NCBI GenBank assembly: GCA_944383695.1
Contig: CALWQP010000026.1
Location: forward strand, 1 to 43,068
Reading direction: 5' to 3'
DNA: 43,068 nt
Origin: an uncultured Mediterraneibacter sp.
GTDB lineage: Bacteria; Bacillota; Clostridia; Lachnospirales; Lachnospiraceae
Of this stretch, positions 11,146 to 28,919 are shown one piece after another (the first letter of the stretch is position 1; each line of letters starts with the position of its first letter). Position numbers and translations under genes: made by a program. The notes under the pieces are model-generated. The model worked only from the letters and a program-made list of their open reading frames with translations, was not told the origin of the DNA and did not search any database.

Positions 11146-11649
11146 ATGAAGAAAATGAATTTCAAAAGTGAATCTGGTTTCACATTGATGGAGCTTATGG
11201 TAGTGATTGGTGTACTGGCAATCCTGATCGCCATTCTTCTGCCGCAGTTTACAGGCTACACAGCGCAGGCTCAGGCGATATCCGCAGCATCAGAGGCGAA
11301 GAATGCTTTGACAGCAGGTTATTCTTACTATGTATCTGTTACATCGAGAGGTACGGGTACGGGGGCAGCTGCATCTACATTTAATCCAGATACGGCGAAG
11401 GCGAGAATGGAGAAAGCTGCTAAAACTTCTGCTAGCGGTGGTGTTGTTTCTGTTACTGATGCGACTAAGGCTAGCTATTCTGTGAAAAAAGGAGATTTGA
11501 CATTTACAACTCACTTTAATTTAAGTACTGGTAGTATTGTATCGGAGTCTGATTCAACTCAGGTGACAGGTACAATGGTATGTGAGCCTGGCGGTCAGGG
11601 CAGTGTATGTGCTGACTTAGAGGCTGAGGGTGCTTTAAAGGTACAGTAA
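11146..11649 (+). CDS. Type IV major pilin
   Basis: A 167-residue prepilin. The leader MKKMNFKSESG ends in Gly and the mature protein would start FTLMELMVVIGVLAILIAIL, with Glu at position 5, the class III consensus read by PilD. The C-terminal domain is small and rich in Ser, Thr and Ala, with a Cys pair (VCEPGGQGSVC) near the end that could form the disulfide-bounded loop common in pilins. The RBS is AGGAGG. It is the best major-pilin candidate because it is short, comes early in the operon, and is followed by an intrinsic terminator that would raise its transcript level above the downstream genes. Confidence 0.9.
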   Translation: MKKMNFKSESGFTLMELMVVIGVLAILIAILLPQFTGYTAQAQAISAASEAKNALTAGYSYYVSVTSRGTGTGAAASTFNPDTAKARMEKAAKTSASGGVVSVTDATKASYSVKKGDLTFTTHFNLSTGSIVSESDSTQVTGTMVCEPGGQGSVCADLEAEGALKVQ

Positions 11650-11687
11650 TCACTCTAACACAATTAATCAATATAACCTTAAAACAG

Positions 11688-11730
11688 AAGAATGGAGGAG
11701 AATGGCATTGCTTCTTCTCCATTCTTTTTT
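11688..11730 (+). terminator. Intra-operon terminator after the major pilin
   Basis: A 15-bp stem (11688-11702 with 11712-11726, one G-T wobble) with a 9-base loop and a TTTTTT tract ending at 11730. It stands between the major pilin and the minor pilin genes with no clear promoter after it, so it likely acts as a partial terminator setting the ratio of pilin to assembly proteins. Confidence 0.88.
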
Positions 11731-11782
11731 CTGAAATAATTAAGCCTCCAATGAGGTGTGTAACAATGGGAGGGTGAAGAAA

Positions 11783-12283
11783 ATGAAATTGGCAAAAGAA
11801 TCAGGCTTTACGCTCGCTGAGACGGCAATAGTCATCAGCATCCTTGGAGTTTTACTTATTTTAGGAATAATGAACTACACGGGAATCATTGAATCCAATA
11901 AGATCGCGGAGGCGAGGACTGACGCCCGGCTCGGGGCGGACACCGTCTTTAGTTGTCTGATGTCCAAAGGGACGCTGCGGGAAGAGGAATGTAAAGAACA
12001 GCTGAAAACGGCGCTGCCTGCCTATACGGACACGGCGCCAGGGGACTCGTACTATCGGCTCGTAAAGGGCGACCCATCGGATCCTGATAAGATATCCGCG
12101 GTAGATTTTTGCAAAGTTCTGGATGGGAGTCTGACGATTCAGCATCGGTACTGGGTTGACCGGGATGAGCTCGAATCCCGGGCTGTGACCTCTGACAGTA
12201 CAAGGGGGAATGAATTAGAAAATGCCGGAGAGGTGGACGGAGTCTGCGGCCCGGGGGCAGAAGGGTGGTGTAACTATTGGTAA
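11783..12283 (+). CDS. Minor type IV pilin
   Basis: A 166-residue prepilin: leader MKLAKESG, mature start FTLAETAIVISILGVLLILG with Glu at position 5. The globular part has four or more cysteines (FSCLMSK, EEECKEQL, FCKVL, DGVCGPG), so disulfides are likely. The ATG at 11783 has GGGAGGGTG upstream; a GTG at 11756 in the same frame lacks one and would lengthen the leader abnormally. It overlaps the next gene by 7 bases. Probably a minor or tip-associated pilin. Confidence 0.85.
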   Translation: MKLAKESGFTLAETAIVISILGVLLILGIMNYTGIIESNKIAEARTDARLGADTVFSCLMSKGTLREEECKEQLKTALPAYTDTAPGDSYYRLVKGDPSDPDKISAVDFCKVLDGSLTIQHRYWVDRDELESRAVTSDSTRGNELENAGEVDGVCGPGAEGWCNYW

Positions 12284-12684
12284 GACGGGAAGACGGATTT
12301 ACGCTGGTGGAAACAGTAGTCGTTCTGGCTGTGGTAGCCATTCTCATGGGCGTCATCGGAGTCGGTTCCAATTACTGGCTGGAAGAGCAGAGAAAAATGA
12401 ATCTGGAGACGTTAAATGAGCAGGCGAATCAGGCGCTCATCACATACTATACCATGTATGGAAGATTTCCCTTTGAGGTCTGTGTAGACGCGGGCGGTGC
12501 CCAGGCGGTAAACCCGGGAGATCCGCCGGTGATCCTGACCGAAGACCAAAGCGAGAAGCTGATGGATGAGATCGGAAAGGTGACAAGTCAGAGAGTTGTG
12601 CAGGAATATGATCCTGGAGACTATACACTGACGGTCACATACAGCAATGCATATGTGGCCGGAATGGAGTTTGAGAGGCGGTGA
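12277..12684 (+). CDS. Minor type IV pseudopilin
   Basis: A 135-residue prepilin with a short leader (MVRREDG), mature start FTLVETVVVLAVVAILMGVI and Glu at position 5. The start is TTG at 12277, overlapping the previous stop; GGGTGGTG upstream serves as a ribosome binding site. The helix continues as ERKMNLETLNEQANQALITY, then a small beta domain. It resembles GspH/FimT-type minor pseudopilins in size. It overlaps the next gene by 4 bases. Confidence 0.82.
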   Translation: MVRREDGFTLVETVVVLAVVAILMGVIGVGSNYWLEEQRKMNLETLNEQANQALITYYTMYGRFPFEVCVDAGGAQAVNPGDPPVILTEDQSEKLMDEIGKVTSQRVVQEYDPGDYTLTVTYSNAYVAGMEFERR

Positions 12685-13247
12685 AGTATGGCATGAAAAT
12701 GTGGAAAAGTGAGACGGGATTTACGCTTGTTGAGCTGACGGTCGTTATGGCTGTCATGGGAGTGTTCATAACTGCGATGACGAGTATTTTGATGGTTGCT
12801 TTTGATGTGCATGCAGAGATTGTGCAGGAGAACAGAGAACAGGCAGGCGCTGTGCTTGTGACGCAGCATCTGGAGAGGATGATCAAAAGCAACGACCGTT
12901 TAGGGTGTTTCGATCTTAAGGATAATCCGTTGGATTCCGCTGTCACTGATGACGCTCTTGCGATTAAAGTTGGCGAGGATATGTCCGGGAATGATCTTTA
13001 TGTTTTTTATTATGTGGACCCGGATAAAAAGACAATGTGTTTTGAGTATGGAAGTTCGATAGATCTAGCCAATCCCAATCCCAGTATGGAGCTTGGAAGC
13101 GGCATACAGTCTGTCAGTTGGGAGATCGGGACGAAATCCGTTGGCTGTACGCTGGTTCTGGAATCGACGGCGGCAGGAGGAACGACCTATACGGAGAGCA
13201 TGAAATTTGCCTTAAAATCAGAACAGACATCAAAATCAACACCATGA
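12681..13247 (+). CDS. Minor pilin, PilW/ComGF-like
   Basis: A 188-residue prepilin: leader MKYGMKMWKSETG, mature start FTLVELTVVMAVMGVFITAM, Glu at position 5. The helix leads into VTQHLERMIKSNDRLGCFDL, which resembles the PilW/GspJ/ComGF group of minor pilins. The start is GTG at 12681 in a GTGA overlap with the previous stop, implying coupled translation; an ATG a few codons on is possible. Part of the minor-pilin set that likely forms the tip complex with the 952-residue prepilin at the end of the operon. Confidence 0.82.
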   Translation: MKYGMKMWKSETGFTLVELTVVMAVMGVFITAMTSILMVAFDVHAEIVQENREQAGAVLVTQHLERMIKSNDRLGCFDLKDNPLDSAVTDDALAIKVGEDMSGNDLYVFYYVDPDKKTMCFEYGSSIDLANPNPSMELGSGIQSVSWEIGTKSVGCTLVLESTAAGGTTYTESMKFALKSEQTSKSTP

Positions 13248-13281: not shown

Positions 13282-15249
13282 ATGATTAATACATTTGTAT
13301 TTACAGACAGCAAATTATATATCGGGCTGACCACTTATGGAAAGAGGGATCCTAAGATCAAGAAGCAGATCGCGATGGATTATCCCAATAAGACTTATGC
13401 AGACGGAAGGATTTTGGATGCCACGCTCCTGGCGCATGAGATCGATGTTGCACTGAAGCGGAAAAAGATGAAAGCCCAGAATGCGATTTTTGTTATTGGT
13501 CACAGTGACATCAGCGTGGTGGATTTCACCATCCCCAATGTAAAGGGCAAGCTGACCCAGGCGGTACATCAGGTGCTGGCGGGACGTTTTGTGGGTATCC
13601 AGGACAAAAACTATATTGGCTACAAGTTGAGAAGGATGGAAGGACAGCGCTACAAAGGATACAGTGTTGTTGTCCCCAAGATGATCTTGGGAGAATATTA
13701 TGACCTCTCCAAGAAGCTGGGGCTGAAGCTGCAGTCTGTGGACTACATGGGAAATGTTCTGTATAAGAGCGCGCTTCTGGCAGAGCCGAAGCTCAAGAAG
13801 GCAACCGGGATTATTATGGATAATAATGTGTGCGGACTGCGCACCTATTTCTTTACAGAAGGGGGAATGGTATTCTCCAGAGGGGAGAATGAGAGCAACT
13901 TGTTTGCGGCGGACGGCGATCAGGATGCGGAGTTCTCCTTTGAAGAGCAGCTGGAGATGGAAGATGCAGATGTGGAGGCAGTACAGAAAAGCTACGAATC
14001 TGTCCCCAAAAAATTGGATGAACTGATGGATTTCCAGGGCACGATCACCTTCTTTTTGAACCGCTATGCGGCAAAGCAGCAGGAAGGCGTGGAGCGGATG
14101 CAGGAGGCAAAGGAAGAGGCGGTCACTGAGGTGATCGAGTTGCGCAATCTGTGTGACAGGCCTTTTGAATTCGTGCCAAACTGCGAGAAGAGAGGATTTA
14201 CTTATTTCTCCAAACTGAAGAAGAAGGTCCAGGGGCTGACCAATATATACAGCAGGATGAAAGCGGCGAATCCGGCGTTTTTTGAGGAAGTCAACGAGGT
14301 CCTGGTAGAGATCGAAACGGAATTCAACACCTGTATCGAGCGGTTTCGTAAGTATCTGGAGGAAGAGCAGAGTCCGGAAGAATATCAGAGGAATATGCTG
14401 ATCCAGAGAGCCTGCAAGCTGTTAAACAGTACGATGATGATGGTGGACTTAAACGGCGGCTACAGCTCCATCGACTATGTACTCGTGGATGGCATGGAGC
14501 TGACGGATAAAGAGAAAAAGCTAATCCAGCAGAATGTGGCCAGATACTACACCGGAAAGATACAGGAGTACAGCGAGTGGGGGAGCGCTCCGGGAGAGCG
14601 CTGGATCGGGGCGTCATATAATGAATACAGCTATTTCAGCGATCTGGATCTGTCGGCAGAGATGGAGAAGAATGACAAGTATAACCGGACCAATCTGGAT
14701 AACTTTGTCCTTGGACTTGGAATCGTTGCCTGCCTGTTCGTGGTGACGAGGATCGGATTGGCAGGCTGGAATTTCTACCAGATCCAGCAGATGGATCAGC
14801 AGATCAATGAGAATGAAGCGTTCCTTACGGCAAATGAAGAGGTCAGAGCGCTGGCGGAGCAGGAAGGACAGCTGCAGGCGGATCTGGAAGAAGTGGATCA
14901 TTTTGAGAGTTATTTCGAGGCGGCGAGATTTGACCTGAGTCAGGAATATTCCCAGGTATCCGGGGTGTACAGCTCAGTGCAGGTCGTATCTATCAGCCAG
15001 GAGGAGGACAATACGATCCGCCTTCAGATCGACACGAATGATTTGAGCAACGTCTCCAGATTCGTAGAGTTAATGCTGCTGAGCGGCTATGAGGATTGTG
15101 CGTACACCAATGTCACCAGGTCAGAGACGGGATACAGGGCAGAGGTGACTTATAAATACAGACCTGACGAGGCAGTACAGGATGATGCGCAGGCGGAAGC
15201 GCAGGAGGATACTCAGGTGCAGGAAGAGGAGGTACAGGTAAGTGAGTAA
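13282..15249 (+). CDS. PilM-PilN fusion of the pilus inner-membrane platform
   Basis: A 655-residue protein. The first half is PilM-like, the actin-fold cytoplasmic ring component: FVFTDSKLYIGLTTYG, then SDISVVDFTIPNVKGKLTQA and KATGIIMDNNVCGLRTYFF. A variable acidic and helical region follows (about residues 210-440). One membrane segment (about 474-494, FVLGLGIVACLFVVTRIG) and a coiled coil with a small external domain then look like PilN. PilM (about 350) and PilN (about 190) are normally separate; here they are one chain of larger size, so the PilM-PilN contact is covalent. The RBS is AAAGGAAGGAA. It overlaps pilO by 8 bases. The PilM half has diverged and its ATP site is not obvious. Confidence 0.75.
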   Translation: MINTFVFTDSKLYIGLTTYGKRDPKIKKQIAMDYPNKTYADGRILDATLLAHEIDVALKRKKMKAQNAIFVIGHSDISVVDFTIPNVKGKLTQAVHQVLAGRFVGIQDKNYIGYKLRRMEGQRYKGYSVVVPKMILGEYYDLSKKLGLKLQSVDYMGNVLYKSALLAEPKLKKATGIIMDNNVCGLRTYFFTEGGMVFSRGENESNLFAADGDQDAEFSFEEQLEMEDADVEAVQKSYESVPKKLDELMDFQGTITFFLNRYAAKQQEGVERMQEAKEEAVTEVIELRNLCDRPFEFVPNCEKRGFTYFSKLKKKVQGLTNIYSRMKAANPAFFEEVNEVLVEIETEFNTCIERFRKYLEEEQSPEEYQRNMLIQRACKLLNSTMMMVDLNGGYSSIDYVLVDGMELTDKEKKLIQQNVARYYTGKIQEYSEWGSAPGERWIGASYNEYSYFSDLDLSAEMEKNDKYNRTNLDNFVLGLGIVACLFVVTRIGLAGWNFYQIQQMDQQINENEAFLTANEEVRALAEQEGQLQADLEEVDHFESYFEAARFDLSQEYSQVSGVYSSVQVVSISQEEDNTIRLQIDTNDLSNVSRFVELMLLSGYEDCAYTNVTRSETGYRAEVTYKYRPDEAVQDDAQAEAQEDTQVQEEEVQVSE

Positions 15250-16108: not shown

Positions 16109-17788
16109 ATGAGGACATATCCGATCGGCAGACTGCTGCTGAAACACCAGTACATAACAAACGCTGCCTTTGAACAGCTCAAGGAAGAAGGGGAGAAGCG
16201 GGACACAGAGGAGTATGATCTTCTCCGGGAATTGAATATTATATCGGTTTCCAGACTGATGCAGGCATTCAGTCATATTTTCAGTCTGGAAATCGTAGAT
16301 CTGGATCTTGTAGAGATTGATGAAGGGCTTCTGGAACTGTTTCCCCAAAAAAGTATGCGAAAGCTTGGCATAATCCCCTTACAGGAGACAGAAAAGGAAT
16401 TGATTCTTGCTGTCAGCAATCCCACGTTGATCGCGGAGATGGAGCGGCTTCGCTATTATACGGAGAAGAAGTTTGTGCTGCGGATCGCGGACCGGGAGCA
16501 GATCATCAAAAGGCTGAACCTGTATTCTGCGGAAAGTGAATCCGCCGAAGCGATTGAGAAGCTGGAAGATGCAATGGAGCAGCAGAAGAGGCCGGAAGAA
16601 ACCATATTGGCAAACATTCTGGACGATACTTCGGACGCTCCCACGATCCGGCTGACCAACTCCATTATCTCGAAAGCCATTACCGAGGGAGCCAGCGATA
16701 TCCACATTGAACCCTATGAGAAGAACGTGACCGTGCGCTATCGGATCGACGGGCGGCTGATCGTACAGCAGAGGCTTCCCATGAATGTTTTCCCGGCGCT
16801 GATTACCCGGTTTAAGCTGATGGGCGGCATGGATATCGCGGAGCGCCGCGTCCCCCAGGAGGGACGTCTTGAGATCATGATGGATAACGTGGGCACGGAC
16901 CTGCGTTTCTCAACCATCCCGAATATTTTCGGAGAGAAGCTCGTTATCCGTCTGCTGAGAAAGAACGCGCTGAATAAAGGGGTTGAGGAGCTTGGATTCG
17001 ATGAAGAATCTCTTGAAAAAGTGAAAGCCATGCTGGACCGTACCAATGGGATCATCCTCGTTACCGGGCCTACCGGAAGCGGAAAGAGTACGACTCTTTA
17101 CTCCTTTCTCAAGCATATAAAATCGGATGAAACAGCGATCGTGACCGTAGAAGATCCGGTGGAGTATACGATCGAAGGCTTTAACCAGACGCAGGTTTCC
17201 GTGAAGCAGGGAATGACCTTCCCGGTGGCGCTTAAAGCAATCCTCCGTCAGGATCCGGACATTATCATGATCGGAGAGATCCGTGATGAGGAGACCGCGC
17301 ACATTGCCGTGCGGGCAAGTATTACCGGACACCTTGTGCTCTCCACGCTCCACACCAACAGCGCGGTCAGCAGTATGGGGCGCCTGCTCAATATGGGCGT
17401 GGAATCTTATCTGCTGGCGGATTCTCTTCGGGGAGTGGTGGCGCAGCGCCTGATACGGCGTCTGTGCCCATACTGCAAAGAAAAGTACCTGGCAAGTGAA
17501 GATGAAAAGCAAACACTGGGCGTAGACTATCCTGTCTTTCTATACAAAGCAAAAGGATGTGCCCGCTGCAATGATACCGGCTATCAGGGCAGGTTCGCTA
17601 TATTTGAAGTGCTCCATGTCACCCCGGAGATAGAGCATATGCTCCAAAGCGGGGAAGAGGTCTCCAGGATCGCGGCAAGGCTCGAGGAGCGGGGAGACTA
17701 CCAGACACTGGCGCAGAGCGTGAAAAAGGCGATATTAAAAGGCGAGACTTCGATGCAGGAAATTAAGGAGGTAGACATAGATGATTAA
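16109..17788 (+). CDS. pilB: Type IV pilus extension ATPase PilB
   Basis: A 559-residue GspE/PilB AAA-type ATPase that powers pilin extraction and assembly. The N-terminal domain (1-150) is of the T2SSE-N/MshEN type; some MshEN domains bind cyclic di-GMP, but I cannot confirm the motif here. Walker A GPTGSGKSTT is at 320-329, the Asp box EDPVEY and Walker B IIMIGEIRDEETA follow, then the His box HLVLSTLHTN. A zinc tetracysteine (C453, C456, C484, C487) is present as in PilB. The ATG comes 4 bases after the pilO stop with a weak ribosome binding site. It overlaps pilT by 8 bases. Confidence 0.95.
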   Translation: MRTYPIGRLLLKHQYITNAAFEQLKEEGEKRDTEEYDLLRELNIISVSRLMQAFSHIFSLEIVDLDLVEIDEGLLELFPQKSMRKLGIIPLQETEKELILAVSNPTLIAEMERLRYYTEKKFVLRIADREQIIKRLNLYSAESESAEAIEKLEDAMEQQKRPEETILANILDDTSDAPTIRLTNSIISKAITEGASDIHIEPYEKNVTVRYRIDGRLIVQQRLPMNVFPALITRFKLMGGMDIAERRVPQEGRLEIMMDNVGTDLRFSTIPNIFGEKLVIRLLRKNALNKGVEELGFDEESLEKVKAMLDRTNGIILVTGPTGSGKSTTLYSFLKHIKSDETAIVTVEDPVEYTIEGFNQTQVSVKQGMTFPVALKAILRQDPDIIMIGEIRDEETAHIAVRASITGHLVLSTLHTNSAVSSMGRLLNMGVESYLLADSLRGVVAQRLIRRLCPYCKEKYLASEDEKQTLGVDYPVFLYKAKGCARCNDTGYQGRFAIFEVLHVTPEIEHMLQSGEEVSRIAARLEERGDYQTLAQSVKKAILKGETSMQEIKEVDIDD

Positions 17789-18860
17789 GGAGTTGCTGCA
17801 CCAGATACTGCAGATGTCAGGAGAATTTAACAGCAGTGATATTCATTTGGTGGAGAAAGCTCATCCGGTGTTCCGCATTAATGGAATGCTGCAGCAGTGC
17901 GACCGCTTTCCGGTGCTGACGCGGGACACAACAAAAGAAATTTCACAATACATAATGGAAGAGCTGTGCGATACGCAGTTCTTCGACCAGAAGGAAATAG
18001 ATGCTGCCTTCAGCATCGAGGGTCTGGGACGTTATCGTTTAAATATTTATAAAGAGCGGGGAAGCTACGCTCTGGCTCTCAGGGCTCTGCCGAATGTGGT
18101 CAAATCCATGCGCGAACTGGATCTTCCCACTCAGCTTGACGAGCTCTGTGACAGAAAGCGGGGACTGATCCTTGTGACAGGCCCCACCGGAAGCGGGAAA
18201 AGCACCACTCTGGCGGCGATGATTAACGAAATCAACCGGAACAAGCGCTGTCATATTATCACCATTGAGGACCCGGTGGAGTATCTGTATGAGCACGATA
18301 AGGCGATTGTAAACCAGAGGGAAGTGGGAGCGGATTCCGGCAGTTTTGCCGATGCCCTCCGGGCAGCCATGCGAGAGGATCCGGATATCATCCTTGTAGG
18401 AGAGATGCGTGATCCGGAGACGATCCAGACCGCACTGACAGCTGCGGAGACGGGGCATCTTGTATTTTCCACCCTGCATACCACCGGGGCGGCGAAGACA
18501 GTAGACCGTATCATTGACACCTTTGAGGGCGGGAAGCAGAATCAGATTGCCCAGCAGCTTGCGACCGTGCTGCAGGCAGTTATTTCTCAGGTGCTGATCC
18601 CAAGGGCGGACGGGAAGGGACGTATCATGTCCTGTGAGATCATGAAAACAACTCCTGCGATACAGAACCTGATCCGTGAGAGGAAGCCCCATCAGATCCG
18701 CAACAGTATCCAGAGCGGTGTGGATATCGGTATGCAGCTGCTGGATAATGATTTGATCCGTCTTGCAAGACTGCGTGTGATCGACCGGACAGAGGCGATT
18801 TCGTATGCGCAGGACAGCGAATATGTCAGCCGAAATTTGACGGGAATAGGAGGAGTATAG
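17781..18860 (+). CDS. pilT: Type IV pilus retraction ATPase PilT
   Basis: A 359-residue PilT ATPase. Walker A GPTGSGKSTT is at 134-143, then IEDPVEYLY, ILVGEMRDPETI and HLVFSTLHTTGA. The AIQNLIRE motif, diagnostic of retraction ATPases, is at about residue 293, and the N-terminal PilT sequence SDIHLVEKAHPVFRINGML is present. Length fits (about 345-370). Its presence predicts retractile pili and twitching or DNA uptake. The ATG overlaps the pilB end; AAGGAGG precedes it. Confidence 0.95.
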   Translation: MIKELLHQILQMSGEFNSSDIHLVEKAHPVFRINGMLQQCDRFPVLTRDTTKEISQYIMEELCDTQFFDQKEIDAAFSIEGLGRYRLNIYKERGSYALALRALPNVVKSMRELDLPTQLDELCDRKRGLILVTGPTGSGKSTTLAAMINEINRNKRCHIITIEDPVEYLYEHDKAIVNQREVGADSGSFADALRAAMREDPDIILVGEMRDPETIQTALTAAETGHLVFSTLHTTGAAKTVDRIIDTFEGGKQNQIAQQLATVLQAVISQVLIPRADGKGRIMSCEIMKTTPAIQNLIRERKPHQIRNSIQSGVDIGMQLLDNDLIRLARLRVIDRTEAISYAQDSEYVSRNLTGIGGV

Positions 18861-18863
18861 AAA

Positions 18864-20054
18864 ATGGCAAAATATATCTACCGGGCAATGGATGAAAAAG
18901 GGTTCTACTCCAATGGGGAGCATGAATGCAACTCTAAAAAGGAACTAGAACAGTTTTTGAATGCCAAAGGTCTGTTTTTGGTTTCCTGTTCTCAGCCTGC
19001 GAAATTCAAATTGTCTGCGGAAAAGATCAAACTGAGGGATATTATTATATTCTCCCGTCAGTTTTCGGTTCTTTCCAATGCGGGCATTTCACAGGATGAG
19101 TGCATCCGCACCATAGCGGTACATACAGAAAAGGATTCCATGAGGACGATCCTCAACGAAATCGCGGAAGAGATGCAGCATGGAAAGCCTCTTTCAGAAT
19201 GTATGGAAAAGCACGAGAAGGTGTTTAAATACTTTTTCGTCTCCATGATGAAAGTCGGAGAGTTCAGTGGAGAGGTAGACCGGGTGCTCAAGGATGTGGC
19301 GGACTATTATGAAGGCGAGGGAAAGCTCCAGTCCAAGATCCGGGGCGCGATCACCTACCCGATCATCCTGGGAGTTATGATCGTGGCTATTGTAATCTTT
19401 CTCATGAATGGGATTGTCCCACAGTTTCAGGACATGTTTGTTTCAATGGGAGCGGATCTGCCCTTCATTACACAGATGCTGATCAATGTCAGTGACTTCG
19501 TCCGGCAAAACGGACTGCTTCTGGCCCTGTTTCTGGTGCTTCTCATTCTCGGGATCCGGTTTTATGTAAAGACGGAGAAAGGAAGATATCACGTAGACCG
19601 GCTTACCATTTCCCTGCCAGTGATCAGTGGAGTGTACACCAAGGTCGTAACAGCCAGATTTGCCCGTTCCATGAGTATCCTTTTAAACAGCGGGATCAGT
19701 CTGATGCAGTCCTTTGACATCATCGATTCCCTGATCTCAAACGGAGTGGTGCTGGAGCGGTTTAAGGAATGTAAGGAAAGTGTTTCCCTGGGATATACAT
19801 ACTCCTCCTCTCTGGAGAAGATGAACTTTTTTCCGAGCATCCTCCTGAACATGGTTGCCGCAGGTGAGAAAGCCGGTTCTCTCGGCGAGGTCTTTGAGAA
19901 GACAAGCTCGTTCTTTGACGATGAGGCAGACCGGGAGATCGACGCCATGATCAAACTGATCGAGCCTGTGATGCTTGTGATCGCAGGAGCGGTCATTGTG
20001 CTGGTATTCCTCTCGATCATGCTTCCGATGTTTGATATGATCGGAAACGTATAG
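18864..20054 (+). CDS. pilC: Pilus inner-membrane platform protein PilC
   Basis: A 396-residue GspF/PilC family protein with the duplicated T2SSF domain. The N-terminal half includes FSRQFSVLSNAGISQDECIR, the second copy FARSMSILLNSGISLMQSFD. Membrane segments lie near residues 165-190, 213-233 and 365-392. The start ATG is 3 bases after the pilT stop with GGAGGA upstream. Length and topology are normal. It couples PilB and PilT to the pilus base. Confidence 0.94.
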   Translation: MAKYIYRAMDEKGFYSNGEHECNSKKELEQFLNAKGLFLVSCSQPAKFKLSAEKIKLRDIIIFSRQFSVLSNAGISQDECIRTIAVHTEKDSMRTILNEIAEEMQHGKPLSECMEKHEKVFKYFFVSMMKVGEFSGEVDRVLKDVADYYEGEGKLQSKIRGAITYPIILGVMIVAIVIFLMNGIVPQFQDMFVSMGADLPFITQMLINVSDFVRQNGLLLALFLVLLILGIRFYVKTEKGRYHVDRLTISLPVISGVYTKVVTARFARSMSILLNSGISLMQSFDIIDSLISNGVVLERFKECKESVSLGYTYSSSLEKMNFFPSILLNMVAAGEKAGSLGEVFEKTSSFFDDEADREIDAMIKLIEPVMLVIAGAVIVLVFLSIMLPMFDMIGNV

Positions 20055-20064
20055 GAAGGAGAAG

Positions 20065-20841
20065 ATGATGCAGAATGTACTTTTCTATGTGGTGTTAGCA
20101 GTGCTTGGCCTTGTGCTGGGATCTTTTCTGAACGTTGTTATTTACCGGGTCCCCAGAAAAGAGGGATTGGCGTTCCCGTCAAGCCACTGCGCGAACTGCG
20201 GGCACAAGCTGTCCCCTCTTGATTTGATCCCAGTGTTCAGCTGGATCTTTCTGAGGGGAAAATGCAGATACTGTAAAGAGAAGATTTCCATTCAGTATCC
20301 TCTGGTGGAACTTCTGACAGCGGCGCTGTTTGTCCTTACGGCGACCCGCGCCGGCAGTGTGTGGGAGCTCGTCCTCTCTCTGGCAACTGTGTTGTTTTTA
20401 ATTCCGATTGCCGCAATTGATTTTCGACATTACATCATTCCAAATAAAATTCTTCTGGCATTTTTGCCGGTGGCTGTGGTGTCCGCGGTTTTACAGGTCG
20501 TAAGTCAGGAACAGGTGAGTCTGTTCTATGACAGCGCAAGTCCTTTCAGTCCGCTGCTCGGAGCCGTGGCCGCATCAGGGATCCTCTTTCTCATCGCCCT
20601 TCTGGGATTTTATCTCCACGGCAGAGAAGAGGTCATGGGAATGGGAGACATCAAGCTGCTGGTCATCTTAGGCGCGCTGTGCGGTCCGAAAAATATTTTG
20701 CTGGTCTTACTTTCCGCGGTGATTCTTGCCGGAGTCGCATCCATTGTGATGCTGGTGCTTCGGAAAAAGGGACGAAAAGATAAAATAGCGTTTGGCCCGT
20801 ATATCATATTAGCATTTTACGTTATTGTATACTGGCTGTAG
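20065..20841 (+). CDS. pilD: Prepilin peptidase / N-methyltransferase PilD
   Basis: A 258-residue type 4 prepilin peptidase with the N-terminal methylase part. FLNVVIYRVPR near residue 20 and the two Cys pairs CANC (about 43) and CRYC (about 70) are present. The catalytic Asp residues are D119 (IDFRHYIIPN) and D195 (GMGDIKLL), the GxGD motif. Six to eight hydrophobic helices. It processes the five or six prepilin-like proteins of the operon. The start ATG follows AAGGAGAAG; an adjacent in-frame ATG one codon later is equally possible. Confidence 0.95.
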   Translation: MMQNVLFYVVLAVLGLVLGSFLNVVIYRVPRKEGLAFPSSHCANCGHKLSPLDLIPVFSWIFLRGKCRYCKEKISIQYPLVELLTAALFVLTATRAGSVWELVLSLATVLFLIPIAAIDFRHYIIPNKILLAFLPVAVVSAVLQVVSQEQVSLFYDSASPFSPLLGAVAASGILFLIALLGFYLHGREEVMGMGDIKLLVILGALCGPKNILLVLLSAVILAGVASIVMLVLRKKGRKDKIAFGPYIILAFYVIVYWL

Positions 20842-20856
20842 AGACAGGAGGAAAAA

Positions 20857-21480
20857 ATGAAGAAAAAAGCGGCGATCCTGTTCCTTTGTCTTGCATGGTG
20901 CCTGACAGGCTGCACTGTGAAAACAGAGGATCCGGATCTGGCAGAGATCATGGATAAAATGGAGGTAACAGAAAACACTTCCGGGGAAAACACATCTGAA
21001 GAAAATACTTCCGGATCGGAGATCAGCGGATACCCTTCTCTGGAAGGAGAGGAGACCGCCTATGTAAAGAAGACCTTTTCCGATGTGTTTAACAGTATCG
21101 AACAAAAAGAGAACAGGCTGTACTATATCGGATATCCGGGGTGCGAGTGGTGTCAGAGCATGGTGGCGATTTTGAATCAGGCGGCAATGGAGGCAGGAAA
21201 GGAAATCTGGTATGTGCCGCTGTATGACGAGCAGGGGAACCAGATATACGAGATGGAGGACAGAGAAGAGTTTGTCGCATATGCAGAAGAGCATCTGGAA
21301 ACGAACGATGAGGGGGAACCGACCTTATATTCTCCGTATGTATTTGTACTAAGAGACGGAGAGATCGTCTCCTCCCATGTGGGCACGCTGGACGGTCACG
21401 AATTAGAGGAAGGCATGACTTCGGAGCAGGAGGAAGAACTACTTAATATTTATAGGGCCATGTTTGAAGAAGTAGAATGA
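20857..21480 (+). CDS. Thioredoxin-like lipoprotein in the pilus operon
   Basis: A 207-residue lipoprotein: signal peptide and lipobox LTGC with the lipidated Cys at 19, then a Ser/Thr/Glu-rich linker (about 25-65) with a repeated ENTS motif. The rest is a thioredoxin-like fold with IGYPGCEWCQSMVAILNQA, a CEWC redox motif near residue 95, and SPYVFVLRDGE as the cis-Pro strand. Anchored outside the membrane, it could form or isomerise disulfides; the pilins of the same operon contain Cys pairs. The role in pilin folding is inference. It overlaps the kinase gene by ATGA. Confidence 0.8.
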   Translation: MKKKAAILFLCLAWCLTGCTVKTEDPDLAEIMDKMEVTENTSGENTSEENTSGSEISGYPSLEGEETAYVKKTFSDVFNSIEQKENRLYYIGYPGCEWCQSMVAILNQAAMEAGKEIWYVPLYDEQGNQIYEMEDREEFVAYAEEHLETNDEGEPTLYSPYVFVLRDGEIVSSHVGTLDGHELEEGMTSEQEEELLNIYRAMFEEVE

Positions 21481-22823
21481 TTTCCATACTTGAGAAAATC
21501 ATGCAGATTTTAAATATCCCCCTGCTGATATTCATCGCTCTTTTATTTACCCGCTTCCAGGTTATTTTCTCAGAGGAAAAGCGGCGAAGTTCTTTTTGGG
21601 CCATTATCATCATTGCTGTGCTGATCGCTCTTTGCTACGGAAGCTATCCAGGAGGAATTATCTCATATTTCCTGATTCTGGAATTGCTGGTACTGGTTGT
21701 AAAAGGACTCTTTCACATGGGAAGCCTGGATACACATTTTCTGCTGGGAAAATGGGCGATGTATCTGTTGATTATTAAAAATGTGCTGTACTGCCTTGCT
21801 TCTGTCATCACGGATTACAGTATCGAAGGGCTGAAGGCTTCCCCGAGAATGCGGCAGAATATAAGTTTTTTCATATATTTATTCGGAGTGGTGGTACTTC
21901 TTCTGCTGCAGAGGCTCTATCCTAAGGAGCGAGTGCGGAAGCTTTTGAAGAATCGGAGCGCAGTGAAGATTCTCGTACTCATGGAGTATGGTTTTTCCTT
22001 CATATGCGTCATCTTTCTGGACTATTTGCTGACCAACGTCTCCTATGAAGGGGTCTATCTGTACCACATTCTGACTCTGTGTATCGGGGGCGCCCTGTAT
22101 TCTGCAATCTTTTATATGTTTGTATTTTTTCAGGAGCGGGATGAGGAAAAAGAGCGGGCGGAGAAGCTGGAGCTGCTGCATCAAAGAAGCAAGGAATACT
22201 ATGAACAAGAGCTGCAAGGGATGCAGGAGCTGCGGAAAGCCCGCCATGATTATAAAAATCAGCTGTTTATTATCCGCTGTCTGTTGGAGGAAGGGGATAT
22301 AGAGAAAGTCAGAGAGTATGTGACAAAGCAGGAGGAGCAGACCCAGCGTCTGGAAAGGGAGACGCTGTGCAACTGGAGAATTTTAAATTACATTCTTGTC
22401 CGGGCGAAGACATATCTCGAAGAACGGAAGATCCGCTGTCAGATTGGACTTTGGATACCGGATATCCATGTAAAGGAAGAAGATATGTATCTGGTCTTTC
22501 TGAATCTTCTGCACAATTGCCGGGAGGCGCTGCTGCGCCAGGATGAGGCAGAGGACAGGTATTTGAAGATCTGGGGGGAGGGAGAATCAGAGGGACGATT
22601 TGCGATTTATCTGGAGAATTCCTTTTCCGGTGAGATCCTGCTCAATGACAGGCAGGAAATCATGTCGGTAAAAGACGACAAAGTGAACCATGGGCTTGGG
22701 CTTAAGATTATCAAGTCAGTTCTGAAACAGAACAAGGGGACAGCGGAATACCACTTTGATGTGCAGGAAAAATATTTTCTGGTGAAATTAACGCTTGAGG
22801 AGGGGGATGGGAATGGAAGCTGA
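21477..22823 (+). CDS. GHKL-type sensor histidine kinase (AgrC-like)
   Basis: A 448-residue membrane kinase. Six hydrophobic segments lie between residues 1 and 220, followed by a coiled coil (221-250) and RKARHDYKNQLFIIRCLLEE, where the His of RHDYKNQ is the phosphoacceptor. The GHKL ATP domain has LVFLNLLHNCREALLR (N box) and KVNHGLGLKIIKSVL (G box). This class partners with LytTR response regulators; one is encoded at 27692, past the end of the pilus operon. The membrane domain has no peptide-export or AgrB-like gene nearby, so its signal is unknown. It overlaps the next gene by 11 bases. Confidence 0.88.
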   Translation: MISILEKIMQILNIPLLIFIALLFTRFQVIFSEEKRRSSFWAIIIIAVLIALCYGSYPGGIISYFLILELLVLVVKGLFHMGSLDTHFLLGKWAMYLLIIKNVLYCLASVITDYSIEGLKASPRMRQNISFFIYLFGVVVLLLLQRLYPKERVRKLLKNRSAVKILVLMEYGFSFICVIFLDYLLTNVSYEGVYLYHILTLCIGGALYSAIFYMFVFFQERDEEKERAEKLELLHQRSKEYYEQELQGMQELRKARHDYKNQLFIIRCLLEEGDIEKVREYVTKQEEQTQRLERETLCNWRILNYILVRAKTYLEERKIRCQIGLWIPDIHVKEEDMYLVFLNLLHNCREALLRQDEAEDRYLKIWGEGESEGRFAIYLENSFSGEILLNDRQEIMSVKDDKVNHGLGLKIIKSVLKQNKGTAEYHFDVQEKYFLVKLTLEEGDGNGS

Positions 22824-24678
22824 GAGCTTTTTTCTTAAATCCAATGTTTATTTCAAAGAATTGAAAGAGATACGGGGCATTCACGAAGATGCTGCAAAAG
22901 AAGTCTGTACCTATCCTTTTTCATGGCAGGAGCTGAGATCCGGCAGGCTGCTCGATACCGAGTCCTGGAAAGAGCAGTTTGAGGAAGCCGGCGCACAGTC
23001 TTTTCAGGGGATTCTTATCCTTTTACCGTTGAAAGACTCTGCATCGCTTTGCATTCCGGCATGGATCGACCGCAGCGGCGCATTTATCCACGGCGGAGAT
23101 TACCGGACTCTTCCATGGATCCGGGGACAGGAGGAAGACGGCGGACTTTATGGCAGAGCAGAAGCTTTTCTGGAGACCCACTTACAGGATTTTCTGGATA
23201 CGAGAGAATGGCGGCAGTTTTTTAAACTGTGTGTGCAGCTGTTTGAGAGTCTGAACCTGGGAGGGGAATGGAAAGAGCATATCGTCTGCCGCAAACTGTC
23301 TGGCCAGCAGGATGGGATGCAGGAACAGTTCTATGATACCATTTTGCATGAAAATAACAGTAACCGGTTATACCGCAATCTGTTTTATCGAATAGAGTCT
23401 TTGGGAAAGCGTTCCGCCATGGAGTATGAAAGCGAACTTCGCGGACAGCTCCAGATATGTGAACAGGGGCAGGAGCAGGAACTGCTGCTCGGGGAGTATA
23501 TACAGAGTGTAAAAAAGATGAAGCGGGCGCCGCTCATCGCAGTGACGGGAAGGGACGAGTCCTGGGTGAGAGGGAAGATCCTCCCCTTTTGGGAAGAGGT
23601 TACGTCAAAAGACCGATATTCCCACGGCGATTCCGATTTCCTGATGATGCCGGAGGAAGAGGATGAGAAAGAATGGTACCGTCTGCTGGAAAAAGCCGAA
23701 TCAGAAGGCAATGAATTTAAAGAAAAAATGGATCTGCTGCTAAATGAAGTGCAGGGAAGTATCCAGGAGACTAAGGCTGATCTTAAACGGCGGGTGCAGG
23801 AGACGGAGGCGCGTCTTCAGAAGATGGAGAAGAGCCTGCGGAAACGGAACGGGGAAATAGACCGGGCTGTCAGCCGTAAAAATGAGTGGATCATTTTTCT
23901 GGACTCCGTATCTGGAGGAAGGTACAAGCTTAGCATATGGCAGAAAAGGCTTGCCAAAAAGGTAGAGGGATTTTGTGAGGAGCAGGATCTGCCGGTTCTA
24001 GGCAGCAACAGGGATGTACAGGAAATCGTGGAGGTCTATGACACATATATAAAAAAGATGCTGCAGGCGCTTCGAAAACGAAACGACATATACAATGAAC
24101 AGAAAGAAAAAAACAACCAGAATAAGAAGCGGATCGATATCCTGGAAACAAGTCTCCCAGTCATGAGTAAAATGGTAGAAATATCCATGGGAAAGGCGGA
24201 GCGGGACACCGTGGACTGGGAGGCGCTGGAAACAGCATCCCTCTGGCAGCTGGAGCAGATTTTAAAGGACGTGTTCCGGAAGTTTCAGCTTAAGACAGCG
24301 TGGACTGCATTCCGTTACTGTAAATGCACTCAAAATGATGGGGAAAACACGGCATACTCCCCGGGCAATTCCGAAATCATACTCTGTGACTTTCAGGAGT
24401 TCTCGAGAAGATTTTACAGTGGAACGCAGGGGATTGATTCTCTGGATCTTCTGATAATTTTGGATGCGGACAACGTTCCGGTGGAGGATGGGATTTTGCT
24501 TGGGAATTTTGCCAGGCGCATGATCTTGCTTAAAGGGACTAAAAGATGGAAAGGAGGTGTTGCCGATGGCATACGGAGATTATTGATGCAGAAGCTGGAA
24601 TTAGGAGAGAAACAACAAGAAGTGTATTGCCGGACAGAAACACTGTGGGATATGGCAAATGAGCTGTTAACCGGTTAG
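22813..24678 (+). CDS. Unknown coiled-coil protein resembling a degenerate SF1 helicase fragment
   Basis: A 622-residue soluble protein I cannot assign to a named family. Residues 239-255 (APLIAVTGRDESWVRGK) sit where an SF1 helicase would have xxAVNGPPGTGKTT, but the P-loop residues are gone. Long coiled coils cover about 300-360 and 405-450, like the insertions in DNA2/Upf1-type bacterial helicases. Residues 527-570 (IILCDFQEFSRRF, then SLDLLIILDADNVP) parallel the helicase stretch xxTTFASFxRMF ... LLIDEAGQA, with the Walker B DE replaced by DAD. The protein ends where the second RecA domain would follow. I start at ATG 22813 (GAGGAGGGG seven bases before) in preference to 22795 or 22807. 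No signal peptide or membrane segment. It is cotranscribed with pilus genes, overlapping the kinase gene. Confidence 0.6.
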   Translation: MEAESFFLKSNVYFKELKEIRGIHEDAAKEVCTYPFSWQELRSGRLLDTESWKEQFEEAGAQSFQGILILLPLKDSASLCIPAWIDRSGAFIHGGDYRTLPWIRGQEEDGGLYGRAEAFLETHLQDFLDTREWRQFFKLCVQLFESLNLGGEWKEHIVCRKLSGQQDGMQEQFYDTILHENNSNRLYRNLFYRIESLGKRSAMEYESELRGQLQICEQGQEQELLLGEYIQSVKKMKRAPLIAVTGRDESWVRGKILPFWEEVTSKDRYSHGDSDFLMMPEEEDEKEWYRLLEKAESEGNEFKEKMDLLLNEVQGSIQETKADLKRRVQETEARLQKMEKSLRKRNGEIDRAVSRKNEWIIFLDSVSGGRYKLSIWQKRLAKKVEGFCEEQDLPVLGSNRDVQEIVEVYDTYIKKMLQALRKRNDIYNEQKEKNNQNKKRIDILETSLPVMSKMVEISMGKAERDTVDWEALETASLWQLEQILKDVFRKFQLKTAWTAFRYCKCTQNDGENTAYSPGNSEIILCDFQEFSRRFYSGTQGIDSLDLLIILDADNVPVEDGILLGNFARRMILLKGTKRWKGGVADGIRRLLMQKLELGEKQQEVYCRTETLWDMANELLTG

Positions 24679-24701: not shown

Positions 24702-27560
24702 ATGAAGAGATTCACATCAGAGAAGGCCTTTACTTTGGTCGAAATGTCCGTGGTGCTTTCGGTTGTTGCTCTAATCGGGTCTCTGTTAGTAGGAGGCGTT
24801 GTTACGGTAAATAACAACAGAGTGTCAGCGGATGTTTTGGAATTCTTTGACAAAGAAATTGAAGAGGCAAATGAAAACTTTAAGTTGGAACCCCAAAAAG
24901 TTCTTAAACAAGCCATAGACCGGCCGGAGCCATATCTAAGCATGAGCTATTCTACTTTGGGAAACCAAACTCCCGGTTTTCAGTATACGGGATATTATGC
25001 GGAAGATCTGACTCCACAGAGCGGATCCACCACTGGTCTTGCAAAGTATCAGCTTATCGTTCGTTTTGAGCAGGAATTCGAAACGGCAGCAAGCAAGGCG
25101 GACGAGGTAGAAGGATTCTCCAGGAATCTACTTTCTTTTCAGATGAAGGCCATGGTTGTGGAACTGGTAGGCGAGGGAACAGAGCAGAAATATGATTATG
25201 ACAATCCTATGCTTGAACGTGTGTATAGAGGGATCTCGGTAGATGTTGACGAGGTAGAACTGAATAAGGAGAAAGATATTACTGTAATTTATAAGATCAA
25301 AGAGGAAGATCAGAATGCGGTGATCAGTAACCTGTCTACCAGTACGACTGCTGAGAATACACTGGAAGTAAAGTTCGCAAAAGGCGATCATTTCTATTCC
25401 CAGAAGGTAACTGCGGTATCAGATAGCGGCAAAGCTTTTGTCGGGTGGGCCGCGGATTCTACCTCAAGGGATATTATTCCTGCAGGACAGAAAATCACCG
25501 GGGATATGACGGTATATGCTGTGTTTTCCGAGTATCGGCTGGAGTTCCAGCTAGCGGAAGGACAGCAGTTTAGTACATCCGTGATTCCGTCTCCGAATAA
25601 TAAGAAAAATTATTATATCGAGAGGGAATTCGCTGATTTCCCGGGAGAAGAAACAACGATCGGTGAGATACCGGATACTCCAGAGCAGAAATTGGTGGTA
25701 CAGAAACTGTTAGAGGATACTCCCGCAGGACAGGTCCTTCAGGTAGGATATACTTTCAAGGGATGGCAGAATGCAGTGACCAAGCAGCCGATAAGTAAGA
25801 GTCTGGGCGGCGATGGATTAGCGACTGTGTTGACGAAGGACGATCCATATTTACAGCTTGAAGCGGTTATGGAAAAGATTGATAAAGCTGATAAAACCCA
25901 GCCATTGAAACTGAATCTGGATTTGACTAACTATCAGGATGGAGGCAGAAAGTTCTTCATATATGATATCACAGATCTGGAATATGCATTCAGCTATGAT
26001 GACAACAGGGATACGCTAAAATTAGTACAGAAAGAATATAATACCTGGGATGGAGAGCGGGAACTGGTTAGTACAGAAGAGTTCGCACTCGAAGAAGACA
26101 GCTGTCTGAGCATTGTCGGTGAGGATAATACAAAGTGGACTGATTTTAAAGCATATATTCAAGACCTAATGAAGGAAGGACTGTACATACAGCTGGATCG
26201 CATCGAGTTGACTGTTAATGCTCCGAAATTCGACAGTTCCACCTATCGGAACGCTACAGGAAACGTTGAAAAAGATAAGGTTTACCTGGCGGATACAAAT
26301 GTGGTCGTAACAGATAAGCAACTGGCGTCTTTAGATGCATCTGCTTTTCAGGAGTACGATAAAATGAAGTATCAGACAATGGCTTTGGACGAACAGGTGA
26401 CAGAGCTTCCTTTGGATGAAGCAAGTTATGATGCTTTGAATGAAGACCTGCTATCATGGTATGAAGGAAACACAACCAATAATGGACAGGTGGAAATTCT
26501 CAATATGGCAGCGTCGATAGAACTTGGCGCTGGTAACGATACGGGCGTGTATACGACCGAATATAGCAAGGATGTTTCCACGACTAAAAAGGAGTTGATT
26601 GGCTCCAGAGAAATCAGCTTCCAGATGGTTGTTCCGATTAGTCTGGTGGATCGCGGGGCACATGCGCCGGGTGAGGATAATTATATACTTTGGGTTCGAG
26701 AGGGTGTGGATGAGAGTGGTTACATCTTTCTGCAGATAAGAGGACAATCAAAGCCGACCTACAGCACTGGGGCATGGACCGAATTGTATCGTTATGATTC
26801 TGACAGCGAGTTCTGGGAGACCATTAAGACAGGAATCCCATACAAAGATACCTACACCGACAGTAACGGCACGTACACAGTCTATAATCGGATTTCAACT
26901 GTGGATGTTATAGGAGATATTGCTGAAAAGTGGTATACTGTACTCCCTGATGTCGGGATTTTGTCGGGAAATGGTCCAACGGAAGACGGGTGGTTTCCGA
27001 AAGAGACCGGATTAAACGAAGTATATGATAATAATAATGTTAAAATTAAAGCAGTGAAGGTACAGTGGCAGGGTGATCTTGAAGCCAAGCTGATGGAGTG
27101 GGGGTATTGCAGGAATGTTAATCGACCGTATTGTGAACCTTATGATCCGGGCGGCATACACCTGCAGCTAAATAGGGGACTTTATGACGTAAGACCTGTT
27201 CCCATAACCAATTATCAGTATGAGGATGCTATTTACATTTTGAGCAGTTCATATGATGAGAATATAACAGAATCTGATATACATTGGGGCAACAAAATTC
27301 CGTATGTGGCTTATACGGGTTCTGCGTATTGGACTGATTCTGAGTTAAAAGAAGCGTTAAGGACGAATCTTACAAACAAGGGAGGCGACTCAGCTAAGTT
27401 TAATTCCATATGGTCGCAAACTACGAAAAAGCAGATAATGATTGGAAGCAACGCTACCCATGTAAGTAATGAAACAATAAAGATGACTCGTTACTCTTTT
27501 AACTACAGCAAGGGAGATAGCGGTTATACAAGCTTACCAGGCAAATTCGTTTGCAAATAG
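24702..27560 (+). CDS. Giant prepilin, probable pilus tip adhesin
   Basis: A 952-residue protein starting MKRFTSEKA, then FTLVEMSVVLSVVALIGSLL: a class III prepilin leader and helix with Glu at position 5, but Ala in place of Gly at position -1. The rest is extracytoplasmic. Residues about 220-285 (from LEVKFAKGDHFYSQKV through VYAVFSEY, with FVGWAAD) resemble an InlB B-repeat / Listeria-Bacteroides repeat, and a second, weaker copy lies about 345-395 (YTFKGWQNAVTKQ). The C-terminal 500 residues are beta-rich, with no motif I know. It has few cysteines. Single-copy large pilins are usually placed at the tip and bind surfaces. The ATG follows AAGGAGGAA. It is the last gene of the operon. Confidence 0.82.
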   Translation: MKRFTSEKAFTLVEMSVVLSVVALIGSLLVGGVVTVNNNRVSADVLEFFDKEIEEANENFKLEPQKVLKQAIDRPEPYLSMSYSTLGNQTPGFQYTGYYAEDLTPQSGSTTGLAKYQLIVRFEQEFETAASKADEVEGFSRNLLSFQMKAMVVELVGEGTEQKYDYDNPMLERVYRGISVDVDEVELNKEKDITVIYKIKEEDQNAVISNLSTSTTAENTLEVKFAKGDHFYSQKVTAVSDSGKAFVGWAADSTSRDIIPAGQKITGDMTVYAVFSEYRLEFQLAEGQQFSTSVIPSPNNKKNYYIEREFADFPGEETTIGEIPDTPEQKLVVQKLLEDTPAGQVLQVGYTFKGWQNAVTKQPISKSLGGDGLATVLTKDDPYLQLEAVMEKIDKADKTQPLKLNLDLTNYQDGGRKFFIYDITDLEYAFSYDDNRDTLKLVQKEYNTWDGERELVSTEEFALEEDSCLSIVGEDNTKWTDFKAYIQDLMKEGLYIQLDRIELTVNAPKFDSSTYRNATGNVEKDKVYLADTNVVVTDKQLASLDASAFQEYDKMKYQTMALDEQVTELPLDEASYDALNEDLLSWYEGNTTNNGQVEILNMAASIELGAGNDTGVYTTEYSKDVSTTKKELIGSREISFQMVVPISLVDRGAHAPGEDNYILWVREGVDESGYIFLQIRGQSKPTYSTGAWTELYRYDSDSEFWETIKTGIPYKDTYTDSNGTYTVYNRISTVDVIGDIAEKWYTVLPDVGILSGNGPTEDGWFPKETGLNEVYDNNNVKIKAVKVQWQGDLEAKLMEWGYCRNVNRPYCEPYDPGGIHLQLNRGLYDVRPVPITNYQYEDAIYILSSSYDENITESDIHWGNKIPYVAYTGSAYWTDSELKEALRTNLTNKGGDSAKFNSIWSQTTKKQIMIGSNATHVSNETIKMTRYSFNYSKGDSGYTSLPGKFVCK

Positions 27561-27691: not shown

Positions 27692-28417
27692 ATGATTAGA
27701 ATTTGCGTTGTGGAAGATGAAAATATCATTTTAAACTATTATAAAGAGTTGTTTCGGTGTTATCAAGAAGAATTTTCTGGCAAAAAAAATTTTGAAGTAA
27801 AGTATTACCACTCTGGTGAGGATTTATTAAGAAAAGAAGATATTAATGAACTGGATGTGCTATATTTAGATTGTTTCATGGGTGAGGGAAAGATGGACGG
27901 CATGGCTGTTGCCTCTGCTGTTCGAAAGATAAACAGTGAAGTAAAGATTATTTTTTTGAGCAGTACACCAGATTTTGCCCTGAAAGCCTATCAGGTAAAG
28001 GCGTGGAATTATGTTGTTAAGAATACGATCACGAAATCGTCTTTCCTGAAAGATTTGGACGAGCTGCTGAATAGTCTGACTGTTCAGCCTCTTAAATTTG
28101 TCTGGAGATTTAACGGTCAGATGGAAATAATCGATCTCACGGAAATTATGTATGTCGAGCGAATCAGACGGAAAAACATTATTAGTACAACCTTTGGAGA
28201 ACGGCAGTGCTATGATACTCTTTCTTCATTGGAGGAACAGCTGGGAAGCAAGATGTTTGTCCGAGTGAATCGTTCTACATTTGTGAACGTTCATTACATA
28301 AAAGGAATTAATAATGAAGAAATATTTATGAAAGATGGGAAACGCTTTTATATCTCAAGCAAGAATTATAAAAGTGTTAAGAATTTAATTTCAATGAAAG
28401 TTTCTGGATGGAGGTGA
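27692..28417 (+). CDS. LytTR-family response regulator
   Basis: A 241-residue response regulator. The receiver domain (1-120) has the acidic pair VVEDEN at 7-10, the phospho-Asp in LYLDCFMG near residue 55 and the switch residues FLSSTPDF; the DNA-binding LytTR domain (about 140-240) includes IMYVERIRRKNIISTTFG and KMFVRVNRSTFVNVHYI. This is the ComE/AgrA class, the usual partner of GHKL kinases; the only one here is in the pilus operon. Its stop is directly followed by the Rrf2 start, so the two are co-expressed. Whether it activates the pilus operon is unproven. RBS AGGAGGA. Confidence 0.9.
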   Translation: MIRICVVEDENIILNYYKELFRCYQEEFSGKKNFEVKYYHSGEDLLRKEDINELDVLYLDCFMGEGKMDGMAVASAVRKINSEVKIIFLSSTPDFALKAYQVKAWNYVVKNTITKSSFLKDLDELLNSLTVQPLKFVWRFNGQMEIIDLTEIMYVERIRRKNIISTTFGERQCYDTLSSLEEQLGSKMFVRVNRSTFVNVHYIKGINNEEIFMKDGKRFYISSKNYKSVKNLISMKVSGWR

Positions 28418-28419
28418 AC

Positions 28420-28875: not shown

Positions 28876-28919
28876 GCAATTTAATTTATAAAGGAGAAGC
28901 CGGGAAAGGAACAAAAGAA

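Follow-up and report, generated by a model that had tools for sequence, protein, structure and literature searches.

The window, by which we mean the whole 43,068-nucleotide stretch of an uncultured Mediterraneibacter sp. analysed here, carries a complete-looking type IV pilus (T4P) operon. The subject of this study is one gene of that operon, 22813..24678 on the forward strand, whose product lacks Walker A and B motifs and resembles superfamily 1 (SF1) helicases. The open reading frame (ORF) starts at an ATG at 22813 and its stop codon ends at 24678; thus the frame of the first-pass annotation is real, but the 622 residues claimed there are 621 plus the stop. The start may equally well be the in-frame ATG at 22807, and a purine-rich, ribosome-site-like gaggaggggg lies upstream. 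The placement proposed earlier, between a GHKL sensor kinase gene and a giant prepilin gene, agrees with the coordinates. With the start at 22813, the gene overlaps the kinase gene (21477..22823; HATPase_c_5, SPOB_a) by 11 bases, while 23 bases separate its stop from the start of the 952-aa prepilin (24702..27560), which is preceded by aaggagg. The overlap and the spacing suggest that the protein is made together with the pilus proteins from one operon.

The operon comprises the following genes, those given with coordinates in this paragraph being on the forward strand. Four are prepilin-like (11146, 11756, 12277 and 12681; together 11146..13247). They are followed by a gene for a PilM-PilN fusion-like protein (13282..15249), which has no Pfam match of its own and is 30% identical (4e-14) to a PilM_2 + PilN protein of locus L071. 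Next come a gene for a 287-aa protein and those for a PilB-type ATPase (16109..17788; T2SSE, MshEN), a PilT-like ATPase (17781..18860; T2SSE), PilC (18864..20054; T2SSF) and the prepilin peptidase PilD (20065..20841). PilD is followed by a lipoprotein-like CxxC gene, the GHKL kinase, the gene under study, the giant prepilin and a LytTR response regulator (27692..28417). The giant prepilin starts with AFTLVEMSVV, and its matches to N_methyl (E 0.018) and Flg_new (E 1.5e-5) are both under the Pfam cut-offs.

Seven homologues, 57–95% identical to the window's protein, were found in the protein database, and a profile search of that database with the alignment of all eight proteins revealed no further homologue among 7995 scored candidates. 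All eight members are 618–664 aa long. Out of 58 Mediterraneibacter genomes the gene is present in three: G000, which is the window's own genome, G285, whose locus is seen in L066 and L004, and G286, where a contig end interrupts the copy, leaving a 387-residue fragment. In the genome sample of the family it is seen in one genome of 250, again the window's own. The location within a T4P operon is observed in the window and in L066, and the order of this gene, prepilin and LytTR regulator is the same in all three genomes with DNA context (the window, L066 and L182), although the G286 contig (L182) carries, besides this gene, only the pilin and LytTR genes of the locus. Hence the expectation that homologues sit at pilus loci held for all three such copies.

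PilB matches at E <1e-100 were found in five of the 58 genomes of the genus. Among carriers of the gene PilB is 93% (G285) and 97% (G286, a 239-residue fragment) identical to that of the window, while in G266 and G297, which yield no match to the family, it is 40% identical in each. In the wider family sample, with at most three candidates scored per genome, PilB is found at E 1e-60 in at least 164 of 397 genomes, and among the matches listed, our own excepted, the identity is 36–51%. Of 40 T4P loci, several of them ended by contig edges, only that of G285 has a relative of the protein, all other ORFs giving E ≥0.32. Given this restriction and the distribution of PilB, the protein would be a component specific to this lineage and to a single kind of T4P. 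No half-way intermediates were found among the ORFs of 41 T4P loci, these 40 and L004, either with the family profile, which matched at the G285 locus only, or with the helicase hidden Markov model (HMM) described below. A tblastn search of plasmids gave one chance match (E 0.4, 20% coverage), and no match was found in phages. The T4P locus of G266, another species of the genus (L065 11385-18854), encodes a 2489-aa prepilin-like protein.

Searches of Pfam, NCBIfam, PADLOC and PDB sequences with the protein or the family alignment produced no credible domain, only weak matches, mostly to coiled coils. In particular, Pfam and NCBIfam place it in none of the known T4P families and give it no prepilin signature, Pfam gave no PLD match in the family, and neither AAA_12 nor the PADLOC MkoC model matched any of the eight members. 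The absence of motor motifs reported earlier is confirmed, as neither Walker A (GxxxxGK[ST]) nor the DE box ([ILVF]DE[ACS]) occurs in any of the eight, the window's copy included. All members are acidic (isoelectric point, pI, 4.93–5.9). No transmembrane-like stretch is present, the maximal 19-residue hydropathy being 1.42–1.76, and because a hydrophobic segment is absent the protein would stay in the cytoplasm. The coiled coils noted before are seen as long helices predicted at residues 281-312, 317-367 and 402-459, much alike in the two AlphaFold2 (AF2) models considered below. They form a stalk (residues 281-459, 23653..24189) with a predicted local distance difference test (pLDDT) of 69–95 per ten residues in the second model, in which FLDSVSGGRY (residues 362-371) is retained in all eight proteins. 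In one homologue, P0005, a low-complexity insertion of repeated AADGQESA-like units lies near residue 515; its site corresponds to a loop with pLDDT <50 (509-520) in the model.

The ancestry was analysed with an alignment of 40 intact SF1 helicases, namely L146, L147 and 38 of the 120 relatives of L146 listed out of 2639 matches among 7993 candidates. L146 and L147 match the PADLOC MkoC model (PDLC03924) at 1.8e-279 and 7.4e-300, covering about 85% of its 1136 positions and none past position 972. Thus, by sequence comparison, the relatives, earlier given as DNA2/Upf1-like helicases, are refined to the SF1 family that matches this model. PMC10925250 places MkoC in the SF1_Upf1 subfamily.

Comparison of the family and helicase alignments by hhalign gave Prob 92.3, E 5.4e-7 and a score of 65.0 over 516 colinear columns, covering residues 29-576; in the global mode the E-value was 4.6e-9. 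The maximal score in 600 column shuffles was 33.2, reversed alignments scored 21.8 and 18.5, and all eleven tested blocks of the protein map on the helicase in colinear order. When the helicase HMM was applied to 2008 sequences, of which 2000 were block shuffles, the eight real proteins took eight of the top nine places (7.4–14.7 bits, the top shuffle scoring 7.6). The N-terminal block 1-225 is significant alone (score 45.7, E 3.4e-5, 0/200 shuffles as high), as is block 370-520 (33.4, 0/200); the real score was reached by 0/200 shuffles for block 105-225 and by 2/200 for each of blocks 1-110 and 460-520. The mapping is nearly the same for subsets of the helicases and agrees wherever the match is long: odd rows yield E 7.9e-7, even rows 6.6e-6, the last ten rows 1.1e-7. 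On the family side, the window's sequence only gives 4.2e-5, P0004-P0007 1.2e-6, and P0007 only 0.047. These values, together with the gaps in a joint MAFFT alignment of the two groups, support the earlier proposal of SF1 descent, truncation and loss of the ATP-binding motifs. Hence the protein is very probably a catalytically dead descendant of an MkoC-type (Upf1-like) SF1 helicase.

The comparison indicates what may have been retained. Residues ~29-192 (22897..23388) correspond to the N-terminal domain of MkoC-type helicases, with the segments SWQEL..GRL, CIPAWID..G..LPW, EWRQFF..C..LFE and FYDTIL. At residues 221-222 (23473..23478) the MAFFT alignment has a deletion point, where 28 helicase residues (272-299 of L146, the P-loop included) are missing. 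It is followed by a putative vestige of motif Ia (strand and helix), KRAPLIAVTGRDESWVRGKILPFWEE (residues 237-262, 23521..23598), placed there by both hhalign and MAFFT; its KRAPLIAVTGRDESW aligns with the helicase strand kAPLIVASSTNNQ. The first-pass annotation had set APLIAVTGRDESWVRGK at the P-loop; both programs shift it to the motif Ia strand (APLIVASSTNNQAVTNII), and the P-loop segment itself is a gap in the MAFFT alignment. The parallel drawn earlier to motif II is right, with SLDLLIILDADNVPVED aligned over YIDLLIVDEAGQVSPEI. This degenerate motif II/III region, DSLDLLIILDADNVPVEDGILLGNFARRMILL, occupies residues 542-573 (24436..24531). The DLLI strand of motif II is kept, but the position of the Walker B aspartate (helicase D684) is leucine (Leu550) in all eight proteins, and that of helicase E685 is Asp in seven and Asn in P0007. 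There is no RecA2 with its motifs IV–VI, the chain running for 48 residues beyond the motif III strand.

Retention along the helicase was counted at the columns that show ≥90% conservation among the helicase rows; of these the family matches 5/17 in positions 1-110, 10/26 in 111-250, 3/32 in the Q motif and motif I, 5/23 in 301-345, 1/22 in 346-400, 6/17 in the stalk, 3/27 in 601-675, 7/31 in motifs II–III and 6/102 in RecA2. Profile comparison shows the protein to have counterparts of the MkoC-type N-terminal domain and coiled-coil stalk and of part of the RecA1 sheet, whereas RecA2, motif III, the P-loop and the Walker B acid have gone. With the catalytic residues lost, ATP hydrolysis by the helicase mechanism is not to be expected. 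A RecA2 remnant in the tail (577-621) was considered and rejected: MAFFT puts like residues on the 6/102 conserved columns there and before, pLDDT is 24–34, and the local hhalign match stops at 576.

Several observations weigh against this reading. Taken alone, the motif Ia block 225-275 is not significant, 22/200 shuffles matching its score, and neither are the motif II/III blocks (540-600, 8/200; 505-621, 20/200). Hence, while the full-length similarity is far beyond chance, each of the two stretches initially cited as evidence for a helicase is near chance by itself. The strength of the match varies with the helicase sample, E being 0.0033 for the first ten rows and 0.0014 without L146 and L147. 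Compared one by one, seven members of the helicase set score 18.0–29.7, no better than 21 other SF1 helicases (14.2–25.6), so that discrimination comes from the profile only. The other SF1 alignments compared, which have 5, 3 and 10 rows and hence fewer than ours, score 25.6, 16.6 and 24.3, respectively. An AF2 model from the eight homologues alone was too poor for use (mean pLDDT 45.9). A second one (pLDDT 70.0, predicted template modelling score, pTM, 0.54) had helicase rows added, and since these assume homology it is not independent of the ancestry; its Foldseek search had a best E of 0.031, with no PDB match at E 0.001. Finally, the protein evolves faster than PilB, PilT and PilC (G000 vs G285, dN, the nonsynonymous divergence, 0.196 vs 0.034–0.038), and hence is hardly a core motor part.

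The second model has strands at 242-246, 523-526, 544-549 and 567-574; with the above reservation about its independence, the first, third and fourth lie where the alignment has the strands of motifs Ia, II and III. The same reservation applies to Senataxin (8ftm_B), which has Foldseek rank 9 (E 0.11) and is the only SF1 helicase recognised among the best 50 rows each of Foldseek and VIA-align. The VIA-align rows cover mainly residues 277-507, and the rows of both programs are mostly coiled coils.

Selection was assessed by the Nei–Gojobori method for G000 vs G285. The gene is under purifying selection, with dN/dS 0.151 (synonymous divergence dS 1.3, near saturation), a value that argues against decay. 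The ratio is 0.034–0.053 for PilB, PilT and PilC, 0.079 for PilD, 0.093 for the PilM-PilN-like protein, 0.109 for the GHKL kinase, 0.129 for the lipoprotein-like gene and 0.589 for the giant prepilin. The identity of the protein under study is 87.1% between G000 and G286 (in the 387-residue fragment) and 68.3% between G000 and G285, whereas for the giant prepilin the figures are 51.7% and 79.4%. Since the two alleles travel apart, the variable outer part of the prepilin is a less likely partner than its constant N-terminus, the kinase or the machine. In the prepilin, the first 40 aligned residues are nearly constant, the three genome pairs sharing 39, 37 and 36 of them.

What would such a protein do at a pilus? 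Tentatively, it may sit at the base of the pilus and work there, independently of ATP, as a scaffold or regulator. The stalk and the N-terminal domain would bind a conserved partner, for which the GHKL kinase, the PilM-PilN/PilB platform and the constant N-terminal part of the giant prepilin are the likeliest candidates. On balance, the best explanation as a whole, held with moderate confidence, is a catalytically dead helicase derivative that serves the pilus base as a scaffold or regulator without using ATP. The more specific history, in which loss of the motor and of RecA2 turned an MkoC-like helicase of the phage-defence type into a new, lineage-specific, ATP-independent cytoplasmic T4P subunit or regulator, is a possibility that we put forward with some reserve.

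Helicase ancestry would also suit a retained nucleic-acid binder that contacts RNA or DNA without ATP and regulates pilus genes or serves DNA uptake through the pilus, the latter being conceivable in view of hits in the genome for PF03772 (Competence, ComEC-type) and for PF12836 (HHH_3, a domain of ComEA). However, ComEC/ComEA-like genes also occur commonly in bacteria that lack T4P, and the acidic pI, the replacement of the motif Ia residues STNNQAVTN and the missing RecA2 disfavour translocation of nucleic acids, so we consider this role unlikely. Slightly less likely still is a role as a cytoplasmic chaperone or targeting factor dedicated to the giant prepilin. The two genes adjoin in all three genomes and the prepilin N-terminus is nearly constant, but the alleles travel apart in both comparisons given above, and the G266 locus has its 2489-aa prepilin-like gene in a genome with no match to the family profile.

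That the protein is an unrelated coiled-coil protein resembling helicases by chance is improbable: the cited stretches are indeed near chance alone and the structural matches are mostly coiled coils, but the non-coiled N-terminal block reaches E 3.4e-5 by itself with 0/200 shuffles as high, and the 11 blocks are colinear. About as improbable, or a little more so, is a remnant of a Mokosh-type helicase that senses or blocks pilus-binding phages. Pili are known phage receptors and the intact relatives match the MkoC defence model; on the other hand, helicase activity is not expected, the protein lacks the C-terminal part, the match of L146 and L147 themselves extends over only about 85% of the model with nothing past position 972, and the family itself has no PADLOC MkoC match. 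A decaying helicase pseudogene is hardly credible: the deletions relative to helicases are large and the gene evolves faster than the pilus motor genes, but all eight members keep a length of 618–664 aa at 57–95% identity to the window's protein, and dN/dS is 0.151.

The protein may be compared with several known systems. With the MkoC-type SF1 helicases (PDLC03924; PF13086/PF13087) it shares the N-terminal domain, the segment order, the motif Ia strand, the coiled-coil stalk, the EFWLAVHYYEC / TAWTAFRYCKC segment and the DLLI strand of motif II; it differs in lacking the P-loop, DE, motif III and RecA2 and in being encoded in a pilus operon. MkoC of Mokosh type II is an active helicase with a C-terminal phospholipase-D part, whereas our protein has no motor motifs, no PADLOC MkoC match and no Pfam PLD match. 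T4P accessory proteins include PilM, PilN, PilO, PilZ and the like; the protein resembles them in being encoded in a T4P operon and predicted soluble, but neither Pfam nor NCBIfam assigns it to a pilus family. Utp25p (PMC9539457) and Deinococcus PriA (PMC4504706) are helicase relatives described as pseudohelicases; they belong to other systems, ribosome assembly and replication restart, while our protein lacks the P-loop segment and RecA2 altogether. No description of a helicase-derived protein in a T4P operon was met in the open-licence literature, most subscription papers being outside its coverage.

T4P machines are usually taken to consist of a rather constant set of components. If the proposed origin and role are true, the stalk and N-terminal domain of a nucleic-acid motor can be reused as a pilus part, and there is a lead on the binding partner of the N-terminal domain in MkoC-type helicases.

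Other SF1 families were considered as the source (L128 type, L133 type and the L172-L181 set) and rejected, their maximal profile score being 25.6, with fewer rows than in our helicase alignment. The window's own genome had no match to that alignment at 1e-5 that could represent an intact donor (two of the 12 first-look candidates being scored). Such matches occur in 57 of 299 genomes of the Lachnospiraceae sample, mostly over the C-terminal helicase part; the strongest is to a piece of 127 residues in G170, located where the contig ends. In G645, a sister gene of the SF1 helicases (L144, L139; G645:C1:2098702-2100879) is seen as two neighbouring match pieces; one of them has two internal TAA stops, so the gene looks broken.

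A few further features of the locus deserve mention. The alleles of the giant prepilin (24702-27560; L066 16450-19293; L182 404-3154) look exchanged between lineages, as between G000 and G285 its dS is 0.208 (dN 0.122) compared to 0.7–1.3 in eight other genes, and as between G000 and G286 its identity of 51.7% is far below the 87.1% of the helicase-like protein. The lipoprotein-like gene within the operon (20857-21480) encodes GCEWCQSM with a thioredoxin-like CxxC and has no credible Pfam match. Directly after the operon (28408-30800) lie the genes of an Rrf2-type regulator and of a prismane/CO (carbon monoxide) dehydrogenase-family protein, in the same order as in L004.

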